Shown piece after piece: positions 4,292 to 45,439 of a stretch of DNA of 64,000 bases (position 1 is its first letter; each line of letters opens with the position of its first letter). Origin of the DNA: Natronobacterium texcoconense (GTDB lineage: Archaea; Halobacteriota; Halobacteria; Halobacteriales; Natrialbaceae). The position numbers and the translations under genes are program-made. The notes below the pieces were generated by a model. The model worked only from the letters and a program-made list of their open reading frames with translations. It was not told where the DNA came from and did no database searches. The stretch is taken from assembly GCF_900104065.1 (NCBI RefSeq), contig NZ_FNLC01000004.1, positions 124,001-188,000 of the forward strand, in the 5' to 3' direction.

Positions 4292-4726
4292 ATGTACCGA
4301 GTGCTCTTACCGGTCGACGCCGATCCAGACCGTGCCACCGAACAGGTAGAGACACTGTTGTCGCTACCCGGCGACGAGGACGATCTCTCGGTGACGATTC
4401 TCCACGTCATCGAGGAAATCGACGCGGCGGCCGACGAAGCAGGCCCCACGTTCATCGAGGACCTCAACGAGTCGTTGCCCGAAATTCGGGACATTCCCGA
4501 CTCCGTCGATCAGGCCCAGCAACGCCTCGAGGAACACGGCATCGACACCGATCGTACCGAGATGGTCGGCGATCCGGCCGACAGCATCCTGCAGATCGCC
4601 GAGGAGACCGACGCCGACACGATCGTACTCGGCGCTCGAGATCGAACTCCCGTCGGAAAAGCCGTCTTCGGAAGCGTTACGCAGTCGGTAATCCTGGAGA
4701 CGGACCGGCCCGTTCTCGTCAGCTAA
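4292..4726 (+). CDS. Universal stress protein (UspA family)
   Basis: At 144 residues this is a single-domain Usp protein. It opens with MYRVLLPVDADPDRA, the usual first strand and nucleotide loop, and ends with VLGARDRTPVGKAVFGSVT before a PVLVS terminal strand. That segment corresponds to the G-x2-G-x9-G-S/T ATP loop, but the second glycine is an aspartate here, so ATP binding is uncertain. It is a soluble cytoplasmic protein, often induced by stress in the family. It is monocistronic and convergent with the HTH regulator that follows. Confidence 0.88.
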   Translation: MYRVLLPVDADPDRATEQVETLLSLPGDEDDLSVTILHVIEEIDAAADEAGPTFIEDLNESLPEIRDIPDSVDQAQQRLEEHGIDTDRTEMVGDPADSILQIAEETDADTIVLGARDRTPVGKAVFGSVTQSVILETDRPVLVS

Positions 4727-4759
4727 TCCCACCGATCGAGCCGAACGGTCGAGTCCGGC

Positions 4760-5461
4760 TCACTCCTCGACGATCGTGTCGAGCAGTTTCGTCTGTGCTG
4801 CCGCCAGATGTTCGGTAAACGTCGACCGGGCGACCCCGAGTTCCTCGGCGACGTCGGTCGCGTTCGCTCCTTTCGGGTAATCGAAGTATCCCATCTCGTG
4901 GGCCGTCTGGAGGATCTCCTGCTGTCGGTCGGTCAGTTCCTCGCGATCGACGATGACGGGATCGCCCGAGGTCTCTTCGTCTTTGGTCAAATCCTCGACG
5001 AGAACGCCGTCGAACTGCTCCCGGAGGTCGGCGACGATCGCGGAGATATCGTCGAGGTTCAGCGTGTGAAAGGACAGCAACAACGCCCCGTTCTGTGCCC
5101 GAACCGACGAGATCGGCGTTCCCGTCTCCTCGACGACCTCGCACGCACAGCTGCCGGTACCGTCGCGTTCGAACCGGTACCGTTCCTCGCGTTCGTTCGC
5201 CTGCACCGCCGTCATCTCGAGGTCGGTCCCGAGTTCGTCGGGCTCGAGGTCCTCGAGCGAGGCGTTCGCGGAGATTTCGAACTCCTCGACGATGACGTCG
5301 TCTCGATCGGGGTTGGGTTCGTTTCCGTCACCGGACGGTGATCGGGGGCTGGCTCGCGTTCTGGTAACGGAGTCGATCGACTCCTCGGTGGTCGCCGAGA
5401 TACTGGCAACCGGACAGTCGGCGGGATCTCGGACGACGACGGTGGCTCGGAACCCGGTCAT
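4760..5461 (-). CDS. HTH-10 (Bat-like) transcriptional regulator
   Basis: The 233-residue protein ends with a helix-turn-helix of the bacterio-opsin-activator type at about residues 170-230. This covers ELTDRQQEILQTAHEMGYF, then ATDVAEELGVARSTFTEHL. The N-terminal half is an unassigned mixed alpha/beta sensor-like region opening with MTGFRATVVVRDPADCPVA. Regulators of this architecture are numerous in haloarchaea and usually act as dedicated activators or repressors. The signal is unknown. It lies on the same strand as sepF but is separated from it by a strongly structured 60-nt hairpin element. Confidence 0.88.
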   Translation of the reverse strand: MTGFRATVVVRDPADCPVASISATTEESIDSVTRTRASPRSPSGDGNEPNPDRDDVIVEEFEISANASLEDLEPDELGTDLEMTAVQANEREERYRFERDGTGSCACEVVEETGTPISSVRAQNGALLLSFHTLNLDDISAIVADLREQFDGVLVEDLTKDEETSGDPVIVDREELTDRQQEILQTAHEMGYFDYPKGANATDVAEELGVARSTFTEHLAAAQTKLLDTIVEE

Positions 5462-5548
5462 ACATGGTTGTACGGCTTCGTTCTAATAACGCGCTGTCGT
5501 AATTCCCGCCGACTGGCAACTGCCGAACGTGTTCCCGACGTTCATACG

Positions 5549-5608
5549 GGCTACTGTCCGCTTCGGCACGACTGCGACGGTTCGTGCCGGGGCGTCGTTA
5601 CAGTAGCC
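5549..5608. other. Compound inverted repeat 3' of sepF
   Basis: An outer 9-bp perfect repeat, GGCTACTGT (5549-5557) with ACAGTAGCC (5600-5608), encloses an inner 8-bp perfect repeat, CGGCACGA (5564-5571) with TCGTGCCG (5582-5589). The inner loop has 10 nt. It begins 4 nt beyond the end of sepF and could be a processing or termination hairpin of that mRNA. It could also be a leader structure of the HTH regulator gene or a small mobile palindrome. No TATA-like box lies 30 bp before it on the plus strand. Confidence 0.55.
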
Positions 5609-5612
5609 GGTC

Positions 5613-5969
5613 TCACTGGCCGAGTTTCTCCCGGCTGACGTGGACGCCGGTCGGGGTGATAATCATCTGGTCGTCGCCTTTTCGTACGATGTCGCCGTTG
5701 ACCTCTTCGGCGACCTGTCGTAACTCGTCGACGATGTGTTCGACGGTACTGTCTTCGGTCCGGAGCCGAGTGACGTCGGCGATGACGATATCGCCGTCGT
5801 AGACGGCGTCTTTGATGTCGATCGCGTCGGCCTGACCGCTGACCTCCGCGATATGGACCTGCATCGTTGCGGCTGCCGACTCAGCCGAAACGTCGTCGAG
5901 ATCCAGTTCGACGTAGTCCTCGGCGGTCCGCGACTGGTCCCCGCCAAGGATTTTGCTCATGAGTCCCAT
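5613..5969 (-). CDS. sepF: Cell division protein SepF
   Basis: This 118-residue protein matches haloarchaeal SepF in length and layout. It has a short amphipathic membrane-targeting N-terminus (MGLMSKILGG), a brief acidic linker beginning with YVELDLDD, and the compact alpha/beta core that polymerises and tethers FtsZ to the membrane. A TATA-like box 27-30 bp upstream supports the start at 5969 and a leaderless mRNA. An ATG three codons later is a possible alternative. It acts on the inner face of the membrane at the division site. Confidence 0.9.
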   Translation of the reverse strand: MGLMSKILGGDQSRTAEDYVELDLDDVSAESAAATMQVHIAEVSGQADAIDIKDAVYDGDIVIADVTRLRTEDSTVEHIVDELRQVAEEVNGDIVRKGDDQMIITPTGVHVSREKLGQ

Positions 5970-5994
5970 TGCCGGTATCCATCATCGCCGCCAG

Positions 5995-6001
5995 TATAGT
6001 T
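5995..6001 (-). promoter_or_regulatory. TATA-like box of sepF
   Basis: AACTATA on the minus strand is centred 29 bp before the sepF ATG, which fits a leaderless transcript and supports the chosen start codon. Confidence 0.45.
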
Positions 6002-6198
6002 CTTACGTCAGACGGAACGTCAGTCTCGCCGACCAGTCACCCCGAAAACGGCTGATTCGTCGCCTGTCCATGGGTTTATTGTGTGTTTCCCGCCGTTTGA
6101 GTTATCGCTCCGATCGATTCACCGATGATCGCGTGGGGAGACTCGTGACTACTGACGACGAGTACCGTTTTTACGATTCAGTCTGACAGTTCGTACGT

Positions 6199-6966
6199 AT
6201 GACGTTCAGCATCTGCGTCCACGAGAGCTACGAGACGGCAGACGGCCAGTCCCACGAGCGGTTCGGCGTCGCCGTGACGACCCGCCTGCCGGGAGTCGGC
6301 ACCCTCTGCCCGTTCGTCAGCGAGAACGGTGCCGTCGCCACCCAGAGCCTGGTCAACGTCGACCTCGGACGGCGTGGCGTCGAGTACATAGACGACGGAC
6401 TCGCCGTCGACGACGCACTCGAGGCGCTGTTAAACGCCGACGATGGCGCACCCCAGCGCCAGCTACACGGCGTCGACGCCGACGGGACGTTCACGTTCTC
6501 CGGCGAGGAGTGTGGCGACTGGTTCGGTCATCTCGAGGGCGAGCACTTCACTGTCGCCGGCAACCTGCTCACCGGCGAGAGCGTCATCGAAGCGACCGCG
6601 GACGCCTACGAGTCCAACGCAGTCCACGAGACAACCGACCCCACCACGGGTCCGAACGCCGCCAGACGCGACGACGAGGACGACCCGGACCCGCTCGCGA
6701 AACGACTGATCGACGCGCTGGCGGCCGGCCACCGCGAGGGCGGCGACAAACGCGAGGAACTCACCGTCCAGAGCGCCGCGGTCGTCGTCGAGTCGACCGA
6801 GAGCCACGACATGACGCCGCCGTACAACGATCTGCGGGTCGACGCAACCGAGACACCGATCGCCGACCTGCGCGAGACCTACGACCTCGCCATGCAAGGG
6901 TACGAGACGTCGCTCGAGAAGTACGAGGAGGCGTACGAAGAGGATTCGCTCGCCGAAACAGAATAA
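6199..6966 (+). CDS. DUF1028 family protein
   Basis: The 255-residue soluble protein begins TFSICVHESYE and continues with FGVAVTTRLPGVGTLCPF and GAVATQSLVN. This is the typical N-terminal half of the DUF1028 family, which has an Ntn-hydrolase-like fold. The enzymatic activity of the family is not established, so I give none. The C-terminal 50 residues are charged and probably helical. A TTTTTACGA box about 28 bp before the ATG supports the start. It is convergent with the PUA protein gene, with no bases between the two stop codons. Confidence 0.82.
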   Translation: MTFSICVHESYETADGQSHERFGVAVTTRLPGVGTLCPFVSENGAVATQSLVNVDLGRRGVEYIDDGLAVDDALEALLNADDGAPQRQLHGVDADGTFTFSGEECGDWFGHLEGEHFTVAGNLLTGESVIEATADAYESNAVHETTDPTTGPNAARRDDEDDPDPLAKRLIDALAAGHREGGDKREELTVQSAAVVVESTESHDMTPPYNDLRVDATETPIADLRETYDLAMQGYETSLEKYEEAYEEDSLAETE

Positions 6967-31991: not shown

Positions 31992-32161
31992 CTATTCGAG
32001 TCAAGCAGGTTCGTCCTAAAACGGTTGTCGAAATGCGCTCGACAAATCTCCGTGCTGACGATCAGTCACCAGCTATGAGAGTTATCGGCTGACGGCACGT
32101 CATTTTCGGCACAATCGCCGAACGGTCCGCGGTTGCGACAGCAACCCGTCGGCCATTCGTC

Positions 32162-32425
32162 TCAGTCGAAGACGGGGGAGTCCTCCTCGAGCGCCTCGAC
32201 GTCGTCGGTGAGCTTCTGGACGTCCTCGGGGAACAGCGAAATCTGGATCTCGTTTCCGTCGTCGTCCTCGAAGACGAGTTTGACGCGTTTATCGCCGAAC
32301 TCGCGGGCCTCGACCGACTCGACGTCGAACAGTTTCGCGGTCGCTGCCTTGTTCTTCGGGCCGACGTTCTTGATCGATCCGTCGTTCAGTTCCACCATGA
32401 AGTCCTCGAGCGTGAGTGCGAGCAT
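32162..32425 (-). CDS. Conserved haloarchaeal hypothetical protein
   Basis: The 87-residue acidic, soluble protein begins LALTLEDFMVELNDGS and contains a strand-rich VKLVFEDDDGNEIQISLFP segment. I took the ATG at 32425. The frame is open a further 34 codons upstream but without haloarchaeal character. I recognise no domain. It is convergent with nothing nearby and sits 170 bp from the start of the S1/OB/DHH gene. Confidence 0.65.
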   Translation of the reverse strand: MLALTLEDFMVELNDGSIKNVGPKNKAATAKLFDVESVEAREFGDKRVKLVFEDDDGNEIQISLFPEDVQKLTDDVEALEEDSPVFD

Positions 32426-45073: not shown

Positions 45074-45175
45074 GCGAGGGCATCGTTCTCGAGTCGAGCC
45101 AGCGATTCATCCGGGCCGCTGTAAGCCATTTCCGCGTCCTGCAGTCGTTCCGGTAAATCGTTACAGCGTTCCGTA

Positions 45176-45439
45176 TCAGTCGTTGTACGTTCCGTGCTGG
45201 GGTCCACCGTCCCGGTCGGTAGAAGAGAGTGAGACGGTGCCGGATTCGTCGATACGGATCGCGTACCCACAGTACGTAAAGGTAACCGCCGTCCCTCGAG
45301 TAGCCGACTCGAGTAGGTTGTCGAGTGCGTCGGGATCGATCGTCTCGTACAGCGGTCGATCCAGCGCTACCGGTTCGATCTCCTCGGCTGCAGCTACCTC
45401 TTCGACGACCATCTGACTCGGCCGCTTGCCCCGATCCAT
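45176..45439 (-). CDS. HalOD1 output domain protein
   Basis: The 87-residue protein matches HalOD1 (VVEEVAAAEEIEPVALDRPLYETIDPDALDNLL, then AVTFTYCGYAIRIDESGTVSL). HalOD1 is a haloarchaeal output domain of unknown action that occurs alone or fused to receiver domains. I used the ATG at 45439, which lies 29 bp from a TTTATC box. It is divergent from the RNA array on its left side. Confidence 0.8.
   Translation of the reverse strand: MDRGKRPSQMVVEEVAAAEEIEPVALDRPLYETIDPDALDNLLESATRGTAVTFTYCGYAIRIDESGTVSLSSTDRDGGPQHGTYND

Follow-up and report, generated by a model that had tools for sequence, protein, structure and literature searches.

The window, that is, the whole 64-kb stretch of DNA analysed here, contains a sepF gene on the minus strand whose stop codon directly adjoins a hairpin. 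The next gene on the same strand, with its start at 5461, encodes a regulator. The features discussed below are the following:

5613..5969, minus strand: sepF (Pfam SepF, 118 aa); its stop codon served as the insertion target
5613..5615, minus strand: TGA stop codon of sepF, which is also one of the two 3-bp target repeats
5545..5612, minus strand: inserted body between the duplicated TGAs, with a TACGG end at 5545-5549
5542..5544, minus strand: the other 3-bp target repeat (TGA on the minus strand)
5541..5616, minus strand: diverged element copy including its flanking repeats, 76 bp for a family consensus of 88 bp, aligned to the young copy L125; it scores 56.5 bits with covariance model R1, partly by construction since it was one of the nine training sequences
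5484..5509, minus strand: promoter-like block of the regulator gene, between hairpin and gene, with GCGGGAATT at 5509-5501 and TTATTA at 5489-5484
4760..5461, minus strand: regulator gene (DmsR_N + HTH_10), downstream of sepF
45106..45179, minus strand: second element copy, 50.3 bits, located on the stop codon (45176-45178) of a predicted gene of 87 aa

The hairpin behind sepF

A reading made from the sequence only had described two nested perfect stems at this place. Both are present, with arms at 5549-5557/5600-5608 and 5564-5571/5582-5589, and within the window no other perfect inverted repeat is nested in this way (9-bp arms separated by 20-60 nt and enclosing 8-bp arms). At least one such repeat is found in 5 of 20 dinucleotide shuffles of the window, and the nested geometry by itself is only mildly unusual, not far above chance. 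On the plus strand, the segment 5530-5630 folds with z = -3.12, one of 200 shuffles folding equally well; for the longer stretch 5463-5625, taken in the sepF sense, z is -0.77 and 48 of 200 shuffles are equally good. The hairpin stands above chance because it is homologous to a dispersed repeat family. It is a worn, diverged 76-bp copy of a dispersed palindrome of about 88 bp and not a sepF-specific RNA. With respect to the consensus, it is 12 nt shorter and the 3' half of a conserved internal loop is gone.

A dispersed palindrome with a 3-bp target duplication

A search for further copies in the genome, proposed by the sequence-only reading, was carried out with model R1 and yields about 80 dispersed copies. 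The model gives at least 149 matches, both strands counted (150 of 1616 candidates scored), corresponding to at least 78 distinct copies at 40 bits or more and at least 84 at 30 bits or more, two of the latter belonging to a second family. Duplications and stop codons were counted on a set of 88 copies that includes these second-family members (L178:685 and L188:2392, with TATAGTA ends). The best strand was kept at each place, and partial or adjacent matches (C1:330211, C1:1137253, C1:1137279) and the weakest ones (C2:1089948, C4:156081, C1:513815) were left out. A further worn copy, C1:513819, lies on a predicted stop codon outside this set. In the window, positions 32081-32165 could hold another, very weak copy (19.9 bits, E 0.24). 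A plain DNA search of the genome returned weak partial matches only, one of which (L007) is a full family member. The paired pattern TACTGT...ACAGTA occurs at five places besides the window copy; L121 and L123 are family members, and the other three were judged by eye to be chance.

Matches at E<=1e-12 occur in 91 of 125 genomes of the family, in very uneven numbers per genome, and matches at E<=1e-9 in 12 of 59 genomes of an order-level sample. They are also found in 19 plasmid records from ten genera, some of them partial. The phage collection searched gave no match, and viral contigs gave two exact pattern matches. Behind sepF itself, a look-alike palindrome is seen in L010 and L011 (the window's genus), L025 and L017 (another genus of the family), and L114 (a Haloarcula metagenome-assembled genome). 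Of the 109 other sepF loci, 96 were searched with the model (near-duplicates being left out by eye), and the element stands close behind the gene in these same five and nowhere else among them.

In the model orientation, the 5' half of the element reads TSA, TACGG, nnn, RCTGTAA, CGATTTA, CCGGCGCAACCGC, followed by the loop, and the 3' half reads GCGGTTGCGCCGG, AAATGAC, TTACAGY, nnn, CCGTA, TSA. Covariation, another proposed check, is found: among 188 unique copies scoring at least 40 bits, taken from a set of 216, double changes affect 21 of the 28 stem pairs. Across the same copies, the internal loop CGAT/TGAC (C20, G21, A22, T23 / T66, G67, A68, C69) is unpaired and 84-99% conserved. Two variants were noticed. 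A subfamily in G117 (L337, L341, L343, L345, L348, L353, etc.) has the same ends and TSA borders with another inner stem, GGTGATTGCC/GGCAATCACC. The second, related palindrome family has TATAGTA...TACTATA-like ends and a similar subterminal core, CTGCAACTATTTACAC...GCATTGACTTGCAGT; it is found at L178:685-772, L188:2392-2479, and L308:4302-4387, and also near sepF in L026 (1966-2053).

The 3-bp repeat outside the palindrome is direct, not inverted: it is TGA/TGA or TCA/TCA, in either orientation with respect to the interior. The same 3 bp are present at both ends in 45 of the 88 copies (31 TGA, 13 TCA, 1 TGC). In relatives, matching TGA or TCA pairs border 24/31 copies in G001, 23/29 in G118, 13/14 in G019, and 12/12 in G042, that is, 72/86 when pooled. 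Moreover, identical 80-bp cores occur at two to seven places per genome with different flanks and intact repeats (eight groups, the largest being the seven copies in G001). Empty sites were sought for 51 elements in the stretches compared, where both flanks were present for six element-genome pairs, with diverged flanks; the empty sites are approximate, none being letter-perfect on both sides. One G003 copy sits on a stop codon whose counterpart in G000 carries no element; there the gene-side flank aligns well and the other is diverged. Conversely, a weak G000 copy is absent from G003, where the gene end is TGA. A third case is G001, in which no element separates sepF from its neighbour; the sequence there, TGA-ACTGAACC, exceeds a perfect empty site by about 12 nt. 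The remaining three pairs concern the two different insertions at sepF. The G003 copy (L010) lies 18 nt past the sepF stop codon. Since this is another site than that of the window copy, the two probably arose by separate insertions. The L017 copy starts at the sepF stop codon itself.

Identical cores at different loci with intact repeats, together with approximate empty sites, thus designate a mobile element that duplicates its target. Hence, of the three suggestions made from the sequence alone, that of a mobile palindrome is borne out by dispersed copies, target duplications, and approximate empty sites; those of a stable sRNA and of a leader of the regulator are not supported (see below). 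Adjacent pairs of elements are seen in L264, L265, L278, L282, and L302, as if new copies inserted into the TSA border of an older one.

Partial searches in this genome and in relatives found no transposase with matching ends. In the genome, the end pattern with at most one mismatch gives 65 matches, all inside copies (C1:513819 being the further worn one) except C3:137320. In 1.32 Mb of sequence, eight end pairs were retrieved, with at most 10 of 22 letters alike. An end search in 34 element-poor genomes returned 28 matches, attributed by eye to chance and to the G117 subfamily with its other interior. PF01609 gave 81 matches, 30 of which were examined as loci; in none of these does an end pair flank a transposase, and two contain ordinary copies. 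Four unpaired ends were met there: L380 is a full copy, L365 and L369 look like chance, and L372 is end-like. The latter stretch, L372:984-1002 in G001, reads TGATACGG...CTGTAAC about 500 nt upstream of the PF01609 transposase match and may be a remnant, chance, or a partner end. PF00665 has no match in four of four genomes, the end search in G019 covered 100 of 177 places, and no transposase-like gene was noticed between copies when nine loci with neighbouring copies were inspected with the gene finder.

Stop codons as insertion sites

Stop codons were predicted with a codon-usage gene finder made for this analysis. In 55 of the 88 copies, both window copies included, the terminal TSA position is the stop codon of a predicted gene. 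Of the 235 TSA sites available in the window, 34 are stop TGAs and 201 are non-coding TSAs, which corresponds to an enrichment with odds of 9.9 (55/88 vs. 34/235, p 1e-16). On the gene side, the 55 stop-codon copies carry 51 TGA, 3 TAA, and 1 TAG, whereas 30 intact TGAs remain on the far side, a difference to be expected if one repeat is under selection and the other decays. In relatives, the stop-codon share varies and is for the most part lower: such copies amount to 9/31 in G001 (11/36 in another region), 11/29 in G118, 2/14 in G019, 9/12 in G042, and 5/6 in G003. For G001, G118, G019, and G042 pooled, the share is 31/86 (odds 4.9, p 1e-9); in G019 by itself, stop-codon enrichment is not seen (2/14, p 0.66). 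Public annotation places a stop codon within the terminal TSA at four of four plasmid loci, selected for having a CDS beneath the match.

The target motif is approximately GAC-TSA-GnC. It is also shown by 57 intact copies away from stop codons, and is therefore a property of the insertion. It resembles haloarchaeal gene ends. When sites are weighted by the motif as learned from these 57 copies, the expected stop-codon share rises from 10% to 23%; 63 of 120 copies are observed (p 2e-12; intact duplications, at least 60 bits, adjacent pairs excluded). The excess over the motif-weighted expectation presumably reflects selection against insertions elsewhere.

A dispersed family, a 3-bp duplication, and recent copying are thus observed, as is enrichment at stop codons both here and in most of the relatives tested. 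Very probably, the hairpin behind sepF derives from an old insertion of a miniature inverted-repeat transposable element; this element would be non-autonomous, mobilized by a transposase acting in trans, and inserted with duplication of TSA at sites resembling GAC-TSA-GnC. We infer this transposase itself, as well as the respective shares of targeting and selection. The enzyme would most likely be of the DDE type, since the duplication is short and of fixed length and the target is near-symmetric, and it would act on the near-palindromic ends TACGG-nnn-RCTGTAA. Upon insertion, the central TSA (TGA or TCA) would be duplicated. When a stop codon provides the TGA, the stop would survive in the gene-side repeat, the element would become the 3' flank of an intact gene, and the outer TGA would be free to decay. 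Haloarchaeal genes often end with GAC-TGA, so the target motif would steer insertions to gene ends, and loss of insertions from coding and control regions would further enrich the survivors there.

Alternative readings and known elements

Several features of the element are those of miniature inverted-repeat transposable elements (MITEs). It has terminal inverted repeats, no coding capacity, a length well within the limit of about 500 bp, and a target duplication of fixed length (3 bp, TGA or TCA); identical cores with different flanks indicate mobility, with empty sites that are only approximate. As described in PMC2229807, MITEs are likewise short and non-coding, carry terminal inverted repeats, duplicate their target, reach high copy numbers, and fold into a long hairpin. 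In contrast to them, the present element restores stop codons through its 3-bp TSA duplication and has TACGG rather than TA termini, and a partner transposon was not found in the searches above. The short mobile repeats SMR-A/B of Haloquadratum walsbyi, as described in PMC3119063, are similar in being haloarchaeal, 80-110 bp long, and present in tens of copies, with a target preference and prominent inverted repeats unrelated to known transposons. According to the same source, however, SMRs do not duplicate their target and insert into other mobile elements, whereas the present element makes a TSA duplication and is located on stop codons or in spacers. PATEs, related to IS605-type elements, are also palindromic, transposase-free, and haloarchaeal, but the same source describes them as devoid of terminal inverted repeats and target duplications (PMC3119063), both of which are found here, which also separates the element from the IS200/IS605 type. 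MITEs and the Haloquadratum short mobile repeats (PMC3119063) are the closest published kinds. Searches of the open-access literature gave no description of this family, which may have been described elsewhere.

Could the hairpin have been domesticated as a functional 3'-UTR RNA, kept by selection to stabilise or end the upstream mRNA, the structured RNA blocking exonucleases or polymerase from the stop codon onward? Its stems covary while the CGAT/TGAC loop stays unpaired and conserved. Stop-codon copies of this genome are mostly in sense orientation (46 sense vs. 9 antisense; 4:1 in G003), with sense:antisense ratios of 8:5 at 85 bits or more vs. 33:4 at 40-85 bits (p 0.04). The stronger bias of diverged copies may hint that useful 3' hairpins were retained. 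Nevertheless, no sense bias exists in G001 (3:6 and 5:7), G118 (4:7), G019 (1:1), or G042 (5:4), and sense orientation was consequently rejected as a general RNA signature. Non-stop copies of this genome show 48 G-U vs. 29 A-C cells in the model orientation. When every pair of the covariation analysis is counted, the figures are 255 vs. 162, but this surplus comes largely from pair 13-76, whose commonest type is G-T. With pairs 10-79 and 13-76 excluded, stop-codon copies read on the gene-sense strand have nearly equal numbers of G-U and A-C (47 vs. 41 in sense, 8 vs. 10 in antisense copies); RNA-pairing selection is therefore not seen where it would be expected to be strongest. The window copy, moreover, has lost the 3' half of the conserved loop. 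We thus regard a selected 3'-UTR hairpin as unlikely. The proposal of a stable sRNA processed from sepF mRNA has no support: stop-codon copies lack a clear G-U excess, the element stands close behind only five of the 96 other sepF genes searched, and Rfam gave no match at the curated threshold and, at a relaxed threshold over 4700-6300, seven sub-threshold matches at chance level, none of them at the hairpin.

The position directly after the sepF stop codon would suit an intrinsic terminator, but there is neither a T-rich tail nor a terminator-like match at the hairpin and 91 of the 96 other sepF loci have no element close behind the gene, making this function very improbable. Even less credible, and close to negligible, is the idea that the hairpin serves the DmsR_N/HTH_10 regulator as a leader or riboswitch: it does lie upstream of that gene, but its body stops 84 nt short of the start codon, and in between stands a conserved promoter-like block also present in L012, where no element separates sepF from the regulator orthologue. 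This arrangement, under a strict pattern, occurs in 9 of 97 distinct sepF 3' regions, window and L012 included, and suggests a possible promoter or regulator site with leaderless transcription start of the regulator. A conserved block, CGGGAATT followed after about 10 nt by GTTAT, precedes the sepF-neighbour gene in the window, L012, L018, L019, L021, L023, L031, L053, and L078. Finally, the hairpin might belong with REP/BIME-like binding sites or with palindromes derived from IS200/IS605 (PATEs), moving as single-stranded DNA. Bacterial REP/BIME elements are extragenic palindromes with conserved mismatches, which are typical of folded single-strand substrates, and the present element resembles them by its conserved imperfect hairpin, high copy number, and mostly extragenic location. 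However, its 3-bp duplication occurs in either orientation with respect to the interior, which is not expected from single-strand IS200/IS605 chemistry, and REPs are not known to duplicate their target; this origin is quite improbable.

The miniature transposable element therefore remains the preferred reading. One may go further and imagine a stop-codon-homing family, whose target choice (GAC-TSA-GnC, the duplication being identical to the stop codon) evolved as a safe-harbour strategy that renders insertions at gene ends harmless, and whose sense copies were later kept in this lineage as modular 3' ends of host mRNAs; this extension is speculative and rather unlikely. In the preferred reading, what looked like an isolated strange hairpin belongs to a mobile family that is widespread in haloarchaea and that, through its target duplication, restores the stop codon it strikes, a simple and testable route by which a transposon can use gene ends as safe sites. 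The element also gives many host genes at once a ready-made 3' hairpin. For annotation, it follows that a palindrome right behind a stop codon in such genomes may be a transposon copy and not a gene-specific RNA signal.
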